From Sporocytophaga sp. (GTDB lineage: Bacteria > Bacteroidota > Bacteroidia > Cytophagales > Cytophagaceae), in assembly GCF_017745095.1 (NCBI RefSeq), contig NZ_JAGHZZ010000005.1, positions 240,245-304,244 on the forward strand: a stretch of DNA of 64,000 nt, given 5' to 3'. The notes under the pieces were generated by a model. It saw nothing but the letters and a program-made list of their open reading frames with translations, was not told the origin of the DNA and did not search any database. This document shows, piece by piece, positions 44,632 to 55,538 of the stretch (its first letter is position 1; every line of letters begins with the position of its first letter). The translations under genes were made by a program, and so were the position numbers.

Positions 44632-45195
44632 TTAGCTTTTCACTCTTTCCATGTAGTCACCGGTACGGGTATCTACTTTAATTTTTTCACCTATCTCTAT
44701 AAATAAAGGAACTCGTATTTCGGCTCCTGTTTCAAGAGTCGCAGGTTTTAATGTTTTGGTTGCAGTATCGCCTCTTATACCTGGTTCTGTATATGTAACT
44801 TCAAGTTCCACAGAAGTAGGAGGTTCTGCATAAATAGGAGTATCGCCGTCAAAAGAAACTTTAATAACCATTCCTTCCTTAAGGAATTTGAGGCTGTCTC
44901 CAAAAAGCAATTTATCTACAGAGATTTGCTCGTATGTTTCACTGTCCATAAGAACCAGGCTGGGTCCCTCATCATACAGGTAGGAATAATCATTTGTATC
45001 AACCCTTACAAGTTCAACATCTTCGCCGGCACGAAACCTGTGTTCTACAAGTTTACCAGTTTTAATGTTTCTCATTTTCACCTGATAAAATGCACGTAAG
45101 TTTCCAGGAGTACGATGTTCGTATTCCAAAACCTGAACTAATTCATTGTTAAATCTTAAAAAACACCCTTTTGAAATGTCTGAAGTATTAGCCAT
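44632..45195 (-). CDS. efp: Translation elongation factor P with atypical tip loop
   Basis: Helps ribosomes through polyproline stretches. 187 aa, three beta barrels, ending with the usual PG.RGDTATKTLKPATLETGAEIRVPLFI...KVDTRTGDYMERVKS. The tip loop of domain I reads EHRTPGNLRAFYQVK, so the position normally holding a modified Lys or Arg (PGKG or PGRG types) is Asn32. Domain I is otherwise intact. No modifying enzyme gene (epmA, earP, ymfI types) is visible nearby. This protein belongs to an EF-P group without Lys/Arg there, or is hypomodified. Upstream is a 45-codon ORF on the same strand. Confidence 0.93.
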   Translation of the reverse strand: MANTSDISKGCFLRFNNELVQVLEYEHRTPGNLRAFYQVKMRNIKTGKLVEHRFRAGEDVELVRVDTNDYSYLYDEGPSLVLMDSETYEQISVDKLLFGDSLKFLKEGMVIKVSFDGDTPIYAEPPTSVELEVTYTEPGIRGDTATKTLKPATLETGAEIRVPLFIEIGEKIKVDTRTGDYMERVKS

Positions 45196-45276: not shown

Positions 45277-45414
45277 TCAGTCAAAATTGATACTGTCAAT
45301 GGAAGCATAAATAAATGAGTATAAAAGAATCATTGATGCTGTGGTAAAAACATATCCTATGGAAAAGGTAACTCCAAGGATAAAGCTCAATACCAGTAAA
45401 TCCAGTAATTTCAT
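45277..45414 (-). CDS. Small hydrophobic ORF (45 aa) upstream of efp
   Basis: ATG at 45414 to TGA at 45277-45279. The product is mostly hydrophobic (MKLLDLLVLSFILGVTFSIG, then FTTASMILLYSFIYAS), suggesting one or two membrane helices. It is in the gap between the channel gene and efp and on their strand. Evidence is an intact ATG-initiated frame in otherwise empty DNA and a helix-like composition; no family is recognised. Confidence 0.35.
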   Translation of the reverse strand: MKLLDLLVLSFILGVTFSIGYVFTTASMILLYSFIYASIDSINFD

Positions 45415-45482: not shown

Positions 45483-46454
45483 TTATTTATAAATGGCAAG
45501 GATAACCATGAAGATATTCACAAAGAAATAAGTAATTAAAATGACCTTACCGGCTGATTTATTAAAACTGCGAGCATTATTTCTTCTTCCTCTTCTGTCA
45601 AGAATTAATGAATAGGCATTCGATGCTATGATGAAAAGAATAAATAGGAATGTAAGTGAATGTAGAGAATCTACGAGGGTGAAAGACGTAGTTTCTGGAA
45701 GTATTGAATCTATAATATATTTATTACCTACTGACGCAAATAGACCACCCACAGGAAGTCCGAATTTCGGATCTATATCCTCTGGATCTATTACAAAGCT
45801 TATTGAGGCAATGAAAAATGCAATATACATTCCTAGAAACAGCTTGAAAAATAGGCCCCATGCATTTCTTTCCAGATCAAGAGATATAAAAAATGCTCCA
45901 TATTCTGAGTGTTGTTTGTCAAGAGTAACATCTCCGAATGCCGTTGAGTATTCATTTACACCTGAGCTTACTTTGAAATTCGAAATGTTCCAGCCATCTA
46001 TAGCAAAGTCTTTATCAAATTTACTACCCAGAGTATCCGGGACAAACACCAGATTGCTGGCATCAAACATTGTGTTTTCAATATGAACTTTAATGTGCTG
46101 TCTGTCAAATGGGTAGTCATGTACTTTCCAGTTTTGTTTCATAACACATTTCATTTTCATCAATACCCATATTTTCCCATCAATCGTGTCAACCATTACA
46201 TCTGGTTTTTCAATATTTTTAGCATTAGGAACCTCTACCTGAGTAGTGAAATCAAACTCTGGATTCTTATACAGCATCCAAAGCCATAGTCGCATAGTAT
46301 ACTCTTTATCTTTGAAATTTATATCATGAAGACTAAGCACGTAAGCTCCTATATGAACAGTGTCCGCAGCCCCTTCCTTCTTCAGTGAAATAGAATAAGC
46401 AGAATTAAATGAAAATGTAAAAAGGAATAATAAAACAAATAGAAGTCTTTGCAT
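45483..46454 (-). CDS. Prokaryotic pentameric ligand-gated ion channel homologue
   Basis: 323-aa predicted member of the Cys-loop/pLGIC family (as GLIC and ELIC), an ion channel gated by a ligand such as protons. A signal peptide (residues 1-22) is followed by an extracellular beta domain with the LWLWMLYKNPEF strand and the pro-loop region KVHDYPFDRQHIKVHIE (family form FPFDxQ). The C-terminal membrane domain has four helices: TM1 with KLFLGMYIAFFIASISFVI, TM2 with GLPVGGLFASVGNKYIIDSILPET (pore-lining), TM3 with LVDSLHSLTFLFILFIIASNAYSLIL and TM4 VILITYFFVNIFMVILAIY. It lacks the Cys pair, as in other bacterial members. The upstream Kef-type antiporter gene ends 61 nt before it. Confidence 0.83.
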   Translation of the reverse strand: MQRLLFVLLFLFTFSFNSAYSISLKKEGAADTVHIGAYVLSLHDINFKDKEYTMRLWLWMLYKNPEFDFTTQVEVPNAKNIEKPDVMVDTIDGKIWVLMKMKCVMKQNWKVHDYPFDRQHIKVHIENTMFDASNLVFVPDTLGSKFDKDFAIDGWNISNFKVSSGVNEYSTAFGDVTLDKQHSEYGAFFISLDLERNAWGLFFKLFLGMYIAFFIASISFVIDPEDIDPKFGLPVGGLFASVGNKYIIDSILPETTSFTLVDSLHSLTFLFILFIIASNAYSLILDRRGRRNNARSFNKSAGKVILITYFFVNIFMVILAIYK

Positions 46455-46515
46455 GAGCTTGTTATCTCATAGAAAATTAGTAAGAATTACTGAACTGAAA
46501 AAATGAGTTACCTTA

Positions 46516-48501
46516 TTATTTTAATTTTTTACTGAATCTATATATGTCTTCAGGTTTTCCCAATATGTAAATTGTATCATTCATATAGATTTGCTCATCC
46601 GGACCAATTGAAGTAATCAATTGAGTTTTTCTTTTGATAGCAATGATTGTTATTCCGAATTTTTTTCTTATTCCTGAATCTGCAATTTTTTTATTTACAA
46701 TTTCGAATGTTTCATTCTGAACAGAAATGGCAGCTATTTCTATATCCGGTATAGCCAGTGATAAATTTTTTCTTGCTGTTGATCCCGGCAAAAGTCTTAG
46801 CATTTCATAGTTGTCTTCTCTAATTTCCTGAATAAACTCTTCGATTTCCTGTCTCGGTACCAGGTAAGATGTTAATACTCTTGTAAATATTTCTATAGAA
46901 GTCTCAAACTCTTCTGGAATCACTTCATTGGCTCCAAGACTGAATAGAAGCTCGGTATCCTGGATAAATCTTGTACGAACAATGAGGTGAATATTTTTAC
47001 TTGCGTTTCTGATATTAACTACAATCTGTTTGGTTGCTACAGGGTCTGATACTGCAACGACTGCAACTCTGGCTTTATGTATATTCAAATGCTCCAGTAC
47101 CGGCGCATGTACAGCATCTCCGAATAATATATGTTCCCCCTTTTGTTTTTCTTTTTTTACAGTATCGGCGTTGAGTTCAAGTATAACATATGGAATACTT
47201 GCTGCTTTGGCTGCTTTAGCTACATTCTTACCATTTAATCCATAGCCTATTATGATCAGATGGTCTTCAAAATGGTCAATTTTTTTCTTTGAAAGATAAT
47301 CTTTCATTCCTGTGTACCGGTCTGAAATGTTGTTAGGTAATAGAAATCTTTGAACCCATAATGATATTTCATTTCCTGACTTTATGATAAAAGGGGAGAT
47401 AGACATGGTAAGAATGGATATCGCCAGAAAGTACTGGTAATAATCAGAAGTTAACAACCCATTGGAAACACCTACATTAGATAGTATGAATGCAAATTCT
47501 CCCACTTGTGCGAGTCCCAGTCCTACAAGAATAGAACTTCTTATTGGCATTTTTAATAACCGTCCAGAGAAGGCAGATATAATAAATTTGAGTCCTATAA
47601 CAATAAAAGTTAATGCCAGGATGTAAAAGATATGATCTATTACAAACCTTACATTGAGAAGCATTCCAATAGACACGAAGAAAAAACTTGCGAAGATTTC
47701 TCTAAATGGTAAGATATTTCCTAAAGCCTGATGACTGTATTCAGATTCTGAAATGATTAGCCCAGCCATAAATGCTCCAAGTGCCAGTGATAAGCCAATG
47801 GAAGATGTAAGCCAAGCGACCGAGAAACAAATAACGACTATAGAAAGAATGAATAATTCTTTGTTTTTTGTTTTTGCAATTTGATATAGCAAGTTTGGAA
47901 CTATATATCTGGCTGCTACAAGAACGAATATTATGATTAGTACTACCTTTAAAGTAAGGAGTACAAAAGGAAGAAACGTAACAGGTTGCTTTCCCGTTAG
48001 AAATGGCACAGACAACATCATCGGAACAACTATGATATCCTGAAAAATTAAAATGCCTAAAATGGTTTTTCCGTGGGGACTGTTTACTTCTCCTTTTTCC
48101 TGGAGAAGCTTTAATACTATTGCAGTGCTACTCAAAGCCAGGAGACATCCAGCAAAAATAGCATGACCAGTTTCCCAGTCTAATGAGGTCAGTATAGCTA
48201 CTACTGCTGCAATTGTGAGAAAGACCTGTGAGGCCCCTCCGAGCAATACTGATTTTTTTATCTTGGCAAGGTCACCTAAAGAAAATTCAATACCAATTAT
48301 AAAAAGAAGGAGAATTACTCCAACCTCGGCTAAGAGCTCAACTTCATGAGAAGCAGTTACAAGACTCAAACCGTGAGGACCTGCTATGGTACCTGTTAAA
48401 AGAAAACCAATAATTGTTGGGAATTTCAGCTTCTCGAATAGAAGTGTAACTATTACTGCAATACCTAATATTACTACAATGTCCTGAAAAAGAGGGGTCA
48501 T
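46516..48501 (-). CDS. Kef-type monovalent cation:proton antiporter (CPA2)
   Basis: 661-aa antiporter, probably K+/H+. Twelve or so membrane helices lie in residues 1-385, with the CPA2 features FLLTGTIAGPHGL, LFIIGIEFSL and FFVSIGMLLNV. Then come a soluble TrkA-N Rossmann domain (about 413-530; IIGYGLNGKNVAKAAKAASIPYVILE, FGDAVHAPVL) and a TrkA-C domain (about 575-661). The TrkA-N domain binds NAD+/NADH or similar and gates transport. Start ATG at 48501 gives a hydrophobic first helix immediately. The ligand-gated channel gene lies downstream on the same strand. Confidence 0.92.
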   Translation of the reverse strand: MTPLFQDIVVILGIAVIVTLLFEKLKFPTIIGFLLTGTIAGPHGLSLVTASHEVELLAEVGVILLLFIIGIEFSLGDLAKIKKSVLLGGASQVFLTIAAVVAILTSLDWETGHAIFAGCLLALSSTAIVLKLLQEKGEVNSPHGKTILGILIFQDIIVVPMMLSVPFLTGKQPVTFLPFVLLTLKVVLIIIFVLVAARYIVPNLLYQIAKTKNKELFILSIVVICFSVAWLTSSIGLSLALGAFMAGLIISESEYSHQALGNILPFREIFASFFFVSIGMLLNVRFVIDHIFYILALTFIVIGLKFIISAFSGRLLKMPIRSSILVGLGLAQVGEFAFILSNVGVSNGLLTSDYYQYFLAISILTMSISPFIIKSGNEISLWVQRFLLPNNISDRYTGMKDYLSKKKIDHFEDHLIIIGYGLNGKNVAKAAKAASIPYVILELNADTVKKEKQKGEHILFGDAVHAPVLEHLNIHKARVAVVAVSDPVATKQIVVNIRNASKNIHLIVRTRFIQDTELLFSLGANEVIPEEFETSIEIFTRVLTSYLVPRQEIEEFIQEIREDNYEMLRLLPGSTARKNLSLAIPDIEIAAISVQNETFEIVNKKIADSGIRKKFGITIIAIKRKTQLITSIGPDEQIYMNDTIYILGKPEDIYRFSKKLK

Positions 48502-48627: not shown

Positions 48628-50538
48628 ATGAAAAGAATTTCAAGTATTTATTGCCTGCTTTTTTTTCTTTCACTTCAATCCACTTTTAATGCTAATGCGC
48701 AGGATAAGGATTTAGCGAAGGTTCTAAGTCAGGCAGATGAACTGATTAAAGAAGAAGAATATGAAGATGCCTTAGCGCCAGTGTTAAAATTGTCATCTTT
48801 GAAGCCTGATGATCCTGAAATCGCTTATAAAACAGGACTTGTTTATTTTAATTTAAAAGAAGAAATAAAAGCATTGCCTTATCTTGAAAAGGCCAGAAAT
48901 GGGGGGGCTAAAGCCGGAGATCTGAATTTTTATTTGGGTGGAAGCTACCACTTGTCCCACAAGCTGGAAGAGGCTATCAGTGCTTATGAAAGTTATAAAG
49001 CAACTCTAAAACCTAAAGATAAAGAAAAGTTAAATCTGGTAAATCAGAAAATAGCTTTCTGTAAGAACGGATTGGAACTTGTAAAATCTCCTCAAAAAGT
49101 TAAAATAACCAATCTTGGTCCTGGCATCAATTCAAAATATTCAGACTATGTGCCTGCTGTGTCTGCTGATGAAACAGTACTTGTATTCACTTCAAGAAGA
49201 GATAATTCAACAGGAGGTTTAAAGGATCCTCAGGATAACCAGTACTATGAAGATATTTATATTGCTCATAAGAAAGATAATGAGTGGGGAACTGCAGTCC
49301 CTTTAGGAAATGGTATTAATACACCTACACATGATGCTTGTGTTGGTATTTCTCCGGACGGTCAGGATCTCTTTATTTATAAGGTGGATAATGGAGGCGA
49401 TTTGTTTGCAAGTGAACTGAATGGTAGTGAATGGAAGACTCCTAAAACATTAGGTAATCATATTAATTCATCTTTTTGGGAAACGAGTGCAAGTATCTCA
49501 TCTGATGAGAAAACTTTGTTTTTTACAAGTACAAGAAAAGGTGTTGGAGGAACAGATATCTATATGACCAAAAGGCAGATAAACGGAGATTGGGGAAAGC
49601 CTATATTACTTGGCCCTAAAATTAATACAGCCCTTGATGAAGAGAGTCCCTTTATTCATGCAGATGGAAAGACACTCTACTTCAGCTCCAAAGGTCATAA
49701 TTCAATGGGAGGCTTTGATATATTTTCTGTTACAATCAATACAGAAACAGGTGAAGTACTTACGGATCCTGTAAATGTTGGATATCCAATTAATACGGCT
49801 GCCGATGATGTATTTTTCGTTTGGTCTGCAGATAACAAGAGAGCCTATTTCAGTTCCGAGAGAGAAGGTGGTTTTGGAAAGAAAGACATCTACATGCTGG
49901 AAAGAGATGCCAATGCTTCTCTCGTTGTATTTAAAGGGATGATAAAGAGTTGTGAAAATAAAGCACCAGTAGCTGCAACTATTGTCGTTACCGATTTAAC
50001 TACTCAGAAAATTCTTGGAGCTTATAACTCTAATAGTAGTAGTGGTAAATATACTGTTGTATTACCTGCAGGTAAAAACTATGGTGTATCTGTTGAAGCA
50101 CCTGGATATTTATTTTATTCAAAAAATATAGACATTCCATCATTGAATGAATACCTTGAAATCAATGACTCTATTTGTTTGGAAGGAGTTAAGAAAGGTA
50201 AGAAGATGGTATTGCGAAATGTATTTTTTGATGTGAATAAAGCAACATTAAGAAATGAATCTATGCCAGAGCTGGACAGATTAATGGAAATGTTAAAAGT
50301 AAATCAGAATGTTAAAATTCAGATTGGTGGATATACAGACAATGATGGAAATGATGATCATAACCTTAAACTATCGGAAAGTCGCGCTAAAAGTGTTTAT
50401 GATTATCTGATATCAAAAGGAATACCTAAAGAACAGCTTGCGTTTAAGGGATTTGGTAAAGAACAGCCAATCGCTCCTAACGATACTCCTGAGAATAAAC
50501 AATTAAACAGAAGGACAGAAGCTGAAATTATTGAATAG
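48628..50538 (+). CDS. PorE-like TPR/beta-propeller/OmpA outer-membrane protein
   Basis: 636-aa cell-envelope protein. After a signal peptide (ending NANAQ) come TPR-like repeats (about 25-140; DPEIAYKTGLVYFNLKEE). A PD40/WD40-type propeller follows (about 165-430; repeated xSFTSxR and GGxDIY blocks such as TRKGVGGTDIYMTKR), then a carboxypeptidase-regulatory Ig-like segment (about 435-510), and a C-terminal OmpA domain (about 525-636; GGYTDNDGNDDHNLKLSESRAKSVYDYLISKG, RRTEAEI). This order matches PorE of P. gingivalis, which tethers the T9SS to peptidoglycan, but many OmpA/TPR proteins share it. Here no lipobox is evident. Confidence 0.82.
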   Translation: MKRISSIYCLLFFLSLQSTFNANAQDKDLAKVLSQADELIKEEEYEDALAPVLKLSSLKPDDPEIAYKTGLVYFNLKEEIKALPYLEKARNGGAKAGDLNFYLGGSYHLSHKLEEAISAYESYKATLKPKDKEKLNLVNQKIAFCKNGLELVKSPQKVKITNLGPGINSKYSDYVPAVSADETVLVFTSRRDNSTGGLKDPQDNQYYEDIYIAHKKDNEWGTAVPLGNGINTPTHDACVGISPDGQDLFIYKVDNGGDLFASELNGSEWKTPKTLGNHINSSFWETSASISSDEKTLFFTSTRKGVGGTDIYMTKRQINGDWGKPILLGPKINTALDEESPFIHADGKTLYFSSKGHNSMGGFDIFSVTINTETGEVLTDPVNVGYPINTAADDVFFVWSADNKRAYFSSEREGGFGKKDIYMLERDANASLVVFKGMIKSCENKAPVAATIVVTDLTTQKILGAYNSNSSSGKYTVVLPAGKNYGVSVEAPGYLFYSKNIDIPSLNEYLEINDSICLEGVKKGKKMVLRNVFFDVNKATLRNESMPELDRLMEMLKVNQNVKIQIGGYTDNDGNDDHNLKLSESRAKSVYDYLISKGIPKEQLAFKGFGKEQPIAPNDTPENKQLNRRTEAEIIE

Positions 50539-51691: not shown

Positions 51692-53311
51692 ATGCTTGAG
51701 TTTCTGAAGAATATATTTGAGGGGGACTTTATGCCCCACGGGCACTGCTATTTTTGGAAGCCCGAAATCCTTTGGTCTCATGCTATTGCTGATGCTGTAA
51801 TCGCTTTGGCTTATTTTTCAATTCCATTCAGCCTTTATAATATTTTTAGATTAAGAAGAGACTTTGTATATGGAAGGTTAATGCTTTTATTCGCATTCTT
51901 TATTCTTGGTTGTGGTGCTACTCATTTAGTATCTGTCATCACAATCTGGAATCCTGTTTATAGATTCGATGCTCTTCTAAAAATAATAACAGCTATTGCT
52001 TCTATTGCTACTGCAGTAATTCTGATTAAAAAGACACCACAGATTCTTCAGATACCTTCTGCTTACGAATGGAGAAGGTTACATTCTGAACTTAAGAATT
52101 CCAATGAAAAGTTAAAGGAAAGCAATGAAGAACTATTAAAGGCTGATGAGGTTTTGAGAAAAATAAATTCGGAACTGGAAGAAAGAGTGAAGTATAGAAC
52201 GGAAGAACTGGAAGCAAGTATTCTACAGTTTAAATTCATGACTGATTCAATTTCTCAATTAGTCTTTACTGTCAATGAAAGGGGAGAGTTTGATTATTTT
52301 AATCTTAATTGGTACGAATACAGTGGTCTTGATTCCAAGCGATCTTTTCAAAGAGGTTTGTTTGAGATTATCCATCCTGAAGATCTTGAAGAATTATCAT
52401 CTTTCTGGAGACAGGCTTTACAGGAAGGTACAGTTTTCAGATGTTCAGGTAGGCTGAAAGATAAAGCTTCAGAAGAATACCGATGGCACTTAATAGAAGC
52501 CAATCCTATGAAAGATGCTTTTGGAAAGGTCGTGAAGTGGTTTGGAACTTGTACTGATGTAAACGATGAAAAATTATATAGAAAAGAACTGGAAAGGACT
52601 AATAAGGAACTTAAAAGAATCAATACTGATCTGGATAATTTTGTCTATACAGCATCCCATGACTTAAAAGCACCTATCTCTAATCTGGAAGGTCTTGTCA
52701 ATTCACTATCCCAGGAATTGCAGAGCAATAGCTATCCCCAGGAGTTTGATTTATATCTCAATATGATGAAAAACTCTATCCTAAGATTTAAAACTACTAT
52801 AAGTGAGCTTTCTGATATCAGCAAAATTCAAAAGGATACAGAAGAAGATATTGATCTCGTAGATATCAGGGAACTACTTGATGAAGTACTACTTGTTCAT
52901 CATGATACTATTATAGCTGCTAAAACCCAGATAAACATAAATCTGAAATCAACACAAGTAAGTTTTTCAAGAAAGAATCTTAGAAGTTTGATTACAAATC
53001 TGATTACCAATGCCATTAAATACAGGTCTCCATTGAGAAGGCCAGAGATTGATGTAACCAGTGAAGTGATTAATGATATCTTAATATTGTCTGTATCTGA
53101 TAACGGACTTGGAATAGAATCCAAACAGATCGACAAAGTATTCGGGATGTTTAAAAGGGTGCATACACATGTTGACGGTACAGGCGTAGGACTTTATATT
53201 GTAAAGCGAATTGTAGAAAATGCAGGTGGTAAAATTACACTTAACAGTACTGTAAATATTGGAACTACTTTTTCTATTCAATTGCCCTTAAGAAAAGAAA
53301 TTACCTTATAA
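51692..53311 (+). CDS. Histidine kinase with ethylene-receptor-like sensor domain and PAS
   Basis: 539 aa from ATG 51692 (an in-frame GTG at 51668 is less likely). Three helices form an N-terminal membrane domain, with GHCYFWKPEILWSHAIADAVIALAYFSIP and FILGCGATHLVSV. Residues Asp34, Tyr41, Ile44, Pro45, Cys74 and His78 reproduce, with the same spacing, the ETR1 residues Asp25, Tyr32, Ile35, Pro36, Cys65 and His69 that bind copper and ethylene. A coiled coil, a PAS domain (about 175-290), a HisKA dimerisation domain (YTASHDLKAP, His323) and an HATPase (NLITNAIKYRS, SDNGLGI, GTGVGLYIVKRI) follow. No response regulator gene adjoins it. Confidence 0.9.
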   Translation: MLEFLKNIFEGDFMPHGHCYFWKPEILWSHAIADAVIALAYFSIPFSLYNIFRLRRDFVYGRLMLLFAFFILGCGATHLVSVITIWNPVYRFDALLKIITAIASIATAVILIKKTPQILQIPSAYEWRRLHSELKNSNEKLKESNEELLKADEVLRKINSELEERVKYRTEELEASILQFKFMTDSISQLVFTVNERGEFDYFNLNWYEYSGLDSKRSFQRGLFEIIHPEDLEELSSFWRQALQEGTVFRCSGRLKDKASEEYRWHLIEANPMKDAFGKVVKWFGTCTDVNDEKLYRKELERTNKELKRINTDLDNFVYTASHDLKAPISNLEGLVNSLSQELQSNSYPQEFDLYLNMMKNSILRFKTTISELSDISKIQKDTEEDIDLVDIRELLDEVLLVHHDTIIAAKTQININLKSTQVSFSRKNLRSLITNLITNAIKYRSPLRRPEIDVTSEVINDILILSVSDNGLGIESKQIDKVFGMFKRVHTHVDGTGVGLYIVKRIVENAGGKITLNSTVNIGTTFSIQLPLRKEITL

Positions 53312-55538
53312 TCTCAAGCCAGCCTTTTAGCATGCGTTTATTTTCAACTTGTCTCAGGAAGTAGTAATATATCCCGTCTTCAAGATTCTCTCCTTTAAAC
53401 TCATTGAAATAGCCTTTTTTGTAATACACTCTGCTTCCCCACCTGTTATAAATTTCCAGGTCCCATTTCCCTTTTTTCAGGTAATCAATTTTGAAGAACT
53501 CATTTTTATCATCTCCATTGGGTGTGATGAGGTTTGGTGGATCTTGTATATATGGAGAGCAATCTACTATAAGTGTATCAGTATTCTGGCAACCATTATA
53601 TCCTCTTACATGTAACCAGTATTTTTCTTCTTCATTGTGAGGTGTAATGATTGTTGATATGGTATCGCCTGTATTCCACAAGTAGGTCGCAAATTCATTT
53701 GATGCAGATAAGGTAATAGTATCTTGTCTACAGTAATTTAATTCATTAATAGGATGGAAGATTTTTACTTCAGGTATTTTAAGACCTGAAATATTTATTG
53801 AATCAATTTTTTTACATCCAAATTCATTCGATACTTCAATCCAATATTTGCCTGGGCTTGGTACACTTAAAGTATTGCCAGTGCTGTTATCTTGCCAAGT
53901 GTAGGAAGAGAAGGTATTTAGGGTAGAGATCTTTATCTTGGAATTGAGGCAATAGGAAGTATCTTCTGGTAAGATCAGTGAAGTTATTTCAGGAAAGAAT
54001 TTAATATCTACAGAATCTTTCATTTTGCAATCCAGACCTTTGTTTACTTCAACCTTATATGTTCCAGAGTCAGCAATTACGATCCTTTGTTTATCGCTTA
54101 ATGGATTATTATTAAATGTCCAGTTAAACTGACTATTTCCATATCCTGCATCAAGTGATACCTGGGTACCAGGACAAATTTCTTTATCTGCGCCAAGTTC
54201 CAGGAAGCCATAATCGGAAAAATACCCATAGCGAAATCCGGTTCCTGTTTCTGTTCCATTTAATGTTGCAAGATGAAAATCACCTTTCGAGTTTTCTATA
54301 TATGCTGGCAGATCTGGAGGAACAATGGTAATGTCCACATCTCCAGAATAATATAGCCAAGTGCTGTCTGTTCCTACTACTGGTTTAAAATCACTTCCTT
54401 TTATCCAGTTTTTACCATTTAATTTAAATGAATTTTCATTTCCTTTTCTTGTGACCAAATTTAACACCAACCTTTCATCATTCGTCCTTGTAAATACAAT
54501 TCTTTTAGATCCGGAACATTTTAAAGATGGAAGTAAGGCTCCTGCCAGTTCCTGATCAAAACCAGTAATATGAAATATATACACAGGTTTATCTGATTTT
54601 ATATAGGCAGCAGAATCAATTAATTGAAATTCTAATGTCTCACCTTTATTCAAAGTTGCAAGTAGGCTGTCAGAGCCATAAGATACTTTTGTATTATTTT
54701 CTGTAGCGCTGATGTAAGCTCTGTCTGTTGAATATTCTCCACTACCTTTGACAATTACATACTCCTTGCCAGTTTTGTCTGCTGAAACTATCTGGTCTCC
54801 CGCCAGATCATAAGAGCTCCCCTCAGTAATGGAATCATCTTTCAATGTTACAGCTATCGGTTTATCAGAATTTATCTCTGATCCTGCCATATGCAGAGAG
54901 CCTAATCGTGAAGCTGCTTTTATAGAATAACACTGACCCTTATTAAGTGTAATAGTGAATGGAATACCTGCTTTATGACCAAATGCATCTTGAGTAAGGT
55001 TTACAGTTACGTTGGTATTATCCTCCGTTGCAACTATATCTATTGAAGACCACCCATCTACTATGCTCTGGTTATCCCAGTGAGTCTGAAAAGGTGTTAT
55101 AAAATGAGTGCCTAAACCGTAATTGCCTTTAAGTGTAAAAATGTCTGAGTTTACTACATTTCCATTATTACTGCCCATTACTTCATAGTAGGCCGTGATA
55201 ATTTCATTAGAGGTAATATGTAGTCCTTTGTTTATTATACTTTGATCTGGTGTACATTCCAGTATGCCAAGATAAGCTGAAAGATCTATTGATTTTGATG
55301 AAAATGAGTTTAATAAAAATTTTATCGGTTTAAAACTCTTATTGGCAGGTATAGAGATTTCTATAATAACAGGGTTATCAAATGATGCAAATCTAAGATA
55401 AACAGGACTGTTACCATGTCTTTCAGAAACCTCAGGTGCAGCAAACCAAAACTCTTTGTCAGTCTGAGCTTTTAATCCTGATGATATATAAAATAAATAT
55501 ATAAATAAGATGAAAATAACTTTTTTCACAAGTGCCAA
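53301..55538 (-). CDS. Secreted IgGFc-binding-like protein with T9SS type B C-terminal domain
   Basis: 745-aa exported protein. Signal peptide ends SGLKAQ. The N-terminal half (about 25-430) resembles the IgGFc-binding/fimbrial adhesin N domain (DKEFWFAAP, GHKAGIPFTITLNKGQCYSIKA, SDKPIAVTLKDDSI). Cys-rich Ig-like segments follow. The last 90 residues are the gliding-motility CHU_C/type B sorting domain (PNLITPNGDDKNEFFKIDYL, YNRWGSRVYYKKGYFNEFKGENL, GIYYYFLRQ), which directs secretion through T9SS. It lies downstream of the giant gene on the same strand and probably works at the cell surface. The start at 55538 gives a standard signal peptide. Its end overlaps the convergent kinase gene by 11 nt. 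Confidence 0.85.
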   Translation of the reverse strand: MALVKKVIFILFIYLFYISSGLKAQTDKEFWFAAPEVSERHGNSPVYLRFASFDNPVIIEISIPANKSFKPIKFLLNSFSSKSIDLSAYLGILECTPDQSIINKGLHITSNEIITAYYEVMGSNNGNVVNSDIFTLKGNYGLGTHFITPFQTHWDNQSIVDGWSSIDIVATEDNTNVTVNLTQDAFGHKAGIPFTITLNKGQCYSIKAASRLGSLHMAGSEINSDKPIAVTLKDDSITEGSSYDLAGDQIVSADKTGKEYVIVKGSGEYSTDRAYISATENNTKVSYGSDSLLATLNKGETLEFQLIDSAAYIKSDKPVYIFHITGFDQELAGALLPSLKCSGSKRIVFTRTNDERLVLNLVTRKGNENSFKLNGKNWIKGSDFKPVVGTDSTWLYYSGDVDITIVPPDLPAYIENSKGDFHLATLNGTETGTGFRYGYFSDYGFLELGADKEICPGTQVSLDAGYGNSQFNWTFNNNPLSDKQRIVIADSGTYKVEVNKGLDCKMKDSVDIKFFPEITSLILPEDTSYCLNSKIKISTLNTFSSYTWQDNSTGNTLSVPSPGKYWIEVSNEFGCKKIDSINISGLKIPEVKIFHPINELNYCRQDTITLSASNEFATYLWNTGDTISTIITPHNEEEKYWLHVRGYNGCQNTDTLIVDCSPYIQDPPNLITPNGDDKNEFFKIDYLKKGKWDLEIYNRWGSRVYYKKGYFNEFKGENLEDGIYYYFLRQVENKRMLKGWLEIIR

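Follow-up and report, generated by a model that had tools for sequence, protein, structure and literature searches.

Does the position of a ligand-gated ion channel gene directly behind a cation/proton antiporter gene reflect a partnership between the two products, or the history of the locus? The question is raised by a 64,000-nucleotide (nt) stretch of a Sporocytophaga sp. genome (contig NZ_JAGHZZ010000005.1, positions 240,245 to 304,244), hereafter the window, to which all coordinates refer. A preliminary description of this DNA, made from the sequence alone, had noted that a pentameric ligand-gated ion channel (pLGIC) gene lies 61 nt downstream of a CPA2 antiporter gene on the same strand, and had suggested that the two form a pH- or ion-responsive membrane module. 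The open reading frames (ORFs), their strand and the intervening gap are as described:

48501..46516, reverse strand: CPA2 (Kef-type) monovalent cation/proton antiporter of 661 residues, with Na_H_Exchanger, TrkA_N and TrkA_C domains
46455..46515, reverse strand: 61-nt gap with a conserved block of 34 nt (four genomes agree at 33 of its columns) and the dyad AGTAA-TTC-TTACT; the channel gene may have its promoter or operator here
46454..45483, reverse strand: pLGIC subunit of 323 residues, with a signal helix, a ligand-binding domain and four transmembrane helices

The proposed module fares less well, as all four Sporocytophaga genomes show the adjacency but not one of the 66 other channel loci examined does. 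We consider it probable that the pairing is a by-product of rearrangement rather than a dedicated two-part module, and that a stand-alone ligand-gated pLGIC has come to lie beside an ordinary CPA2 exchanger.

Distribution of the pairing

The channel was sought in 59 related genomes (that of the window included), of which 24 gave a match and 17 a close orthologue (E < 1e-90), four of the latter being Sporocytophaga; 55 named channel loci, one of them from Sporocytophaga, were also surveyed. For adjacency, the antiporter was compared by tblastn with 16 relative loci and with the 55 named loci, the flanks being mostly 6-9 kb and shorter at contig ends. The pair is present in 4/4 Sporocytophaga genomes, whereas outside the genus the antiporter is found beside the channel at 0/13 of the relatives' orthologues and 0/54 of the named loci; as one genome (G015, the same as L102) occurs in both sets, these amount to 66 distinct loci. 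At these loci, then, the channel–antiporter module is not conserved beyond one genus. Conservation in related genomes, by which the preliminary description had proposed that its idea be judged, thus holds within the genus and fails outside it. Moreover, conservation within the genus says little, because the whole surrounding block is collinear in the same four genomes: within 18 kb around the pair, 13 gene families follow one another identically in all of them.

The antiporter gives a matching picture from the other side. It has matches at E <= 1e-100 in 14 of the 59 genomes, and full-length close homologues outside the genus (E <= 1e-190) in G048, G013, G024, G018 and G007, all of which lack a channel orthologue (G007 and G013 carry a fused pLGIC elsewhere in the genome). 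No channel gene lies in the 0.6 to 6.5 kb flanks of these five homologues, nor within the 1.5 kb flanks of ten antiporter-homologue loci outside the genus. Outside the genus, not one genome in this set of 59 combines a channel orthologue (E < 1e-90) with an antiporter match (E <= 1e-100).

Neighbourhood, gap and origin of the arrangement

Four further genes of the window bear on how the present order arose:

44632..45195, reverse strand: elongation factor P (efp), a neighbour of the pair that lies near an antiporter fragment in G005 too
45277..45414, reverse strand: small membrane-protein ORF of 45 residues between the channel gene and efp, with an identical peptide in four genomes
48628..50538, forward strand: outer-membrane protein of the PD40/OmpA kind, one of many paralogues, with its gene divergent to that of the antiporter
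53301..55538, reverse strand: surface protein with IgGFc_binding and CHU_C, the latter a type IX secretion signal; four Cytophaga-type genomes have its counterpart immediately upstream of the channel

The channel is carried by 12 of 19 genomes of the Cytophagaceae, the family to which we take the genus to belong. In G004, G010, G014 and G017, a relative of the IgGFc_binding/CHU_C gene lies directly upstream of the channel; the predicted ATG of the latter falls inside the 3' end of the surface-protein gene in G014, G010 and G004, and the two are separated by 83 nt in G017. Against the genome of the window, the G014 surface protein gives one full-length match, at 53301-55538 (45% identity, E 6e-193), the next (1e-28) covering its C-terminal part only; the matched gene is on the channel's strand, ~5 kb upstream of the antiporter. 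In G005, from a related genus, an intact channel stands behind a different CHU_C gene. Another contig of that genome carries a 223-residue C-terminal antiporter fragment (55% identical); after it come what by eye is a response-regulator-like gene, then efp and then a homologue of the 45-residue ORF. The fragment (L163:5825-6496) has no membrane domain and has unrelated short genes upstream; its appearance is that of a decayed copy or of a break in the assembly. The small ORF has a second homologue in G008; compared with the other three Sporocytophaga genomes it shows 8, 12 and 15 synonymous codon changes and 0 non-synonymous ones. In the remaining carriers of the family, G009, G012 and G015, no such surface-protein gene adjoins the channel, the contig of the last stopping right after the channel. 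G033 was omitted from the argument, its pLGIC being of another class (Pro in M1) and its surface-protein gene lying ~26 kb from that channel.

On the simplest view of the gene order, an ancestor of Sporocytophaga joined two older neighbourhoods, one of antiporter, efp and small ORF and the other of surface protein and channel, which would have given the present order of antiporter, channel, small ORF and efp. The adjacency of channel and antiporter looks derived, although the direction of the rearrangement is read from few genomes, with the surface-protein neighbour seen in four (from two genera) and antiporter and efp together in one (G005).

The same neighbourhoods raise the alternative that the channel is functionally tied to surface or gliding (type IX secretion) proteins, having ancestrally been expressed with the IgGFc/CHU_C gene and signalling contact with a surface or nutrient. 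The channel directly follows that gene in four genomes, with an overlap in three of them, and in G005 it stands behind another CHU_C gene; in these five genomes a PorP/SprF-like gene (by eye) and a PD40/OmpA-like gene stand divergently beside the block, and the counterpart of the surface protein is still nearby in the window. Other Bacteroidota carriers, however, have varied neighbours (penicillin-amidase-like, subtilase-like, amidohydrolase-like and others, by eye), and the link between surface protein and channel is not universal, because G009 has the two genes on different contigs and G006 has the surface-protein gene with no channel orthologue. Taking both sides together, we regard such a tie as unlikely. 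The PD40/OmpA gene was also considered as a conserved partner, several Cyclobacteriaceae having an OmpA/PD40-like gene near the channel, and was rejected: the best matches of the L052 protein in the genome of the window are other paralogues among 58 matching places, and since they outrank the window copy, the resemblance is not orthology.

The narrow basis for the direction of rearrangement and the exceptions in G009 and G006 weigh against the by-product reading too, as do four further observations. Tasneem et al. (2004; PMC549065) report that in Microbulbifer degradans a pLGIC gene and a Na+/H+ symporter gene are predicted to form an operon, so that pLGIC–transporter pairing may recur in other lineages. 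In all four Sporocytophaga genomes the antiporter and channel genes are on the same strand, 60-61 nt apart; a terminator scan called none in the gap (3 sites against 1.7 expected over the 3.5 kb scanned); and a weak terminator-like site lies just after the channel, at 45473-45455. Together, the last three make a single antiporter–channel transcript plausible. They would suit a lineage-specific operon, in which the Sporocytophaga channel and K+/H+ antiporter are co-transcribed and jointly balance membrane potential, pH or K+ after a ligand or pH stimulus; both genes are strongly constrained, and the acidic rings at −2' and 19' of the pore (see below) suit a cation channel. We nevertheless think such an operon improbable, given that the adjacency is found at none of the 66 other loci, that no relative outside the genus has both genes at the thresholds above (though G005 retains its antiporter fragment), and that the channel may have a promoter of its own in the conserved block. 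Under the by-product reading a shared transcript would be possible, with a dedicated joint function unsupported.

A promoter or operator for the channel within the gap could, indeed, be as plausible as read-through. The whole gap is 84-98% identical to those of the other three genomes, the other intergenic stretches of the block ranging from 64 to 99%; among 1394 noncoding segments of the 18-kb block, one scores higher than the 34-nt core and at least 13 tie with it. A sigma-70 scan found no site in the gap (19 sites in 3.5 kb, 14.8 expected), and neither the gap nor any other scanned stretch contains the Bacteroidota promoter consensus TTG-N-TAnnTTTG in exact form. A regulator network built on the dyad was discarded, as the 21-nt pattern has no second copy in the genome at up to 3 mismatches and a reversed-pattern control also gave one match.

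The channel and antiporter proteins

The channel is a pLGIC with the GLIC-like architecture foreseen in the preliminary description, in that the ligand-binding domain, the four-helix domain and the proline of the Pro-loop are all present. Its parts are as follows:

45867..46364, reverse strand: extracellular (periplasmic) beta domain, residues 31-196, from the AlphaFold2 secondary structure
Residues 114-117, inside the beta domain: Pro-loop YPFD, with P115 (the tip proline of the beta6-beta7 loop) and D117 in 75/75 subfamily rows
45489..45863, reverse strand: four-helix pore domain, residues 198-322, from a hidden Markov model (HMM) alignment to GLIC and AlphaFold2
45702-45776, reverse strand: M2, residues 227-251, with G2', G6', F9', G13', K15' and D19'

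The extracellular ligand-binding domain PF02931 scores 29.4 bits (Pfam cut-off 26) and is found in 43/43 homologues at E <= 0.01; the PF02932 sequence model matched only 1/43 family members, the channel of the window not being among them. A single-sequence search reaches the best GLIC chain at E 2.1e-6, and a profile of the 43 homologues run against the PDB finds a GLIC/GlyR chimera at 2.8e-15 and GLIC at ~1e-13. The AlphaFold2 model (pLDDT 80, pTM 0.62) comprises the signal helix, the beta domain and four helices; its top Foldseek match is the structure of a GLIC mutant (E 1.9e-20, 18% identity), and VIA-align matches it to animal Cys-loop receptors with Z scores up to 21.7 over 283 residues and a root-mean-square deviation of 4.0. 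The protein is a member of a uniform Bacteroidota subfamily that is without a closely related solved structure and that has members, too, in cultured and named Mucilaginibacter and Pedobacter strains.

The antiporter likewise bears out its assignment to CPA2 with TrkA domains: Na_H_Exchanger (199.8 bits), TrkA_N (62.1) and TrkA_C (51.2) all score over their cut-offs, TIGR00932 falls just below its own (229.5; cut-off 238.3), and the nearest solved structure is KefC (8bxg; E 2.2e-57, residues 9-568). It is not KefB or KefC in the strict sense, the NCBIfam equivalog scores being 303 of 752 for KefC and 268 of 804 for KefB, and it would most simply be a CPA2 K+(Na+)/H+ exchanger of the ordinary kind, in which the TrkA domains presumably control gating. 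At L166, L168 and L169 (G013, G018 and G007), the gene after the antiporter homologue resembles, by eye, an NADPH-dependent FMN reductase, which recalls the KefC–KefF pairing.

Both genes behave as real genes under strong purifying selection. Between congeneric genomes, dN/dS is 0.02-0.04 for the channel (three comparisons), its synonymous differences reaching 37-54%, and 0.03-0.06 for the antiporter (two comparisons, with G003 omitted because the ORF is split there into two overlapping frames). The broken G003 antiporter was not taken as a sign of relaxed need, since two more genes of the block are split in that metagenome assembly, which suggests sequencing indels.

Pore and gating residues were counted over 75 subfamily rows, in which two genomes are entered twice and three tandem pairs are included; the prime numbers of M2 follow the HMM alignment to GLIC. 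Five pLGICs that occur in the same genomes but belong to other classes were excluded beforehand: four have Pro at the M1 site, and the fifth, a fusion with a TPR region, has Gly there and Phe at 9'. At the M1 kink, the subfamily has Gly in 69/75, Cys in 6/75 and Pro in 0/75. The M1 proline is described by Jaiteh et al. (2016; PMC4795631) as the most conserved transmembrane position; PMC549065 gives P, G or S as usual at this site, Gly thus being already accepted. Within M2, glycine occupies 2' in 71/75 and both 6' and 13' in 75/75, and Phe is found at 9' in 75/75. Acidic residues are equally constant, with D or E at −2' in 75/75 and D at 19' in 75/75; they make cation passage through the channel more likely, although PMC4795631 warns that sequence does not settle selectivity in prokaryotic pLGICs.

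The preliminary description had also pointed to the proton gating of GLIC. The roles of E35, H235 and E26 in proton sensing and gating by GLIC are taken from PMC5760087. The H235 position is V, A, S or G in the subfamily and that of E26 is S in 43/43 homologues; E35 pairs with K50 (K in 71, Q in 2 and E in 2 of 75) in an 8-bit HMM segment, the neighbouring E51 being E in 74/75. With H235 and E26 not kept and E35 ambiguous, we reject proton gating as something to be deduced from homology with GLIC. The acids corresponding to E222, E243 and D122 of GLIC are kept, and the channel may accordingly still be sensitive to protons.

The channel query finds only one match in its own genome, and a homopentamer is therefore likely. 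We envisage a stand-alone and probably homopentameric pLGIC, exported to the inner membrane by its signal peptide with the ligand domain in the periplasm. Binding of a small periplasmic ligand would most likely open it, whereupon ions, more likely cations to judge from the fold and from the acids at −2' and 19', would pass down their gradient. A bolder and rather doubtful suggestion is that Bacteroidota have, in their stand-alone pLGICs, a gating class of its own, with no M1 proline, glycine rings in the pore at 2', 6' and 13', an aromatic-ring gate at F9', an invariant K15'/D19' mouth and a wide pore, set behind a K+/H+ antiporter in Sporocytophaga alone. If this were true, there would be a wide-pored ligand-gated class, and its placement in Sporocytophaga would amount to a natural experiment in rewiring.

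Other pLGIC arrangements were seen in the course of the survey. In three Bacteroidota records, channel genes occur as tandem pairs, namely, L050:5064-6948 (1 nt apart), L051:800-2964 (4-nt overlap) and L056:3045-5016 (167 nt apart), which are candidates for heteromeric bacterial pLGICs. The TPR region mentioned above is fused to a pLGIC domain in a 618-residue protein (L018:22-1878) that has the M1 Gly and F9' of the subfamily. Another class of pLGIC, whose open frames run to ~700-725 residues, is present at L046, L047 and L048 (G007, G010 and G004) and also at L019-L023 and L025-L028, and has no match in the genome of the window. In L025 and L026, the channel part is preceded by an N-terminal domain of ~400 residues, by eye a type I periplasmic-binding fold; that of L025 has no Pfam or PDB sequence match. 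The same two gene families precede this class in the three neighbourhoods examined (DUF4919 and acyltransferase-like genes in L047).

Comparison with known systems

In 2016, none of the pLGICs of unicellular organisms had a known biological role (PMC4795631), and gene neighbourhood is therefore one of few clues. The present results remove the antiporter as such a clue, its association with the channel being confined, at the loci examined, to one genus, and shift attention to the surface-protein link in Cytophaga-type bacteria and to the uniform, widespread Bacteroidota subfamily. Among open-licence papers, none was found that names both Sporocytophaga and an ion channel, and only PMC549065 that names both Cytophaga hutchinsonii and a ligand-gated ion channel.

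GLIC, from Gloeobacter violaceus, shares the fold, a similar length and the Pro-loop with the channel, and three of its acids have counterparts (E222 as D or E at −2', E243 as D at 19' and the Pro-loop acid D122 as D117). The two differ in overall sequence (~18% identity), in the M1 proline (G or C), in the 9' residue (I in GLIC, F here), in H235 (V, A, S or G) and E26 (S), and in E35, which aligns to K50 or next to it.

The antiporter resembles KefC and KefB, the glutathione-gated K+/H+ antiporters, in its CPA2 membrane domain and TrkA_N. In contrast to these, it scores far below the equivalog cut-offs, has an extra C-terminal TrkA_C, and has a channel gene and an OmpA gene as neighbours, with no Kef-type oxidoreductase.

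A close counterpart of the channel is the stand-alone pLGIC of Cytophaga hutchinsonii, which we take to be represented by G014: the G014 orthologue is 59% identical to the channel of the window and, unlike it, follows a surface-protein gene and not an antiporter. Tasneem et al. (2004; PMC549065) list three pLGIC versions in C. hutchinsonii, one of them of this simple architecture. The idea of a pLGIC beside a transporter is shared with the Microbulbifer degradans pLGIC and Na+/H+ symporter described in the same source, a different organism that we compare by description only. Both a stand-alone Cytophaga pLGIC and a pLGIC beside a Na+/H+ symporter have thus been known since 2004, and next to them the pairing in the window is a local oddity.

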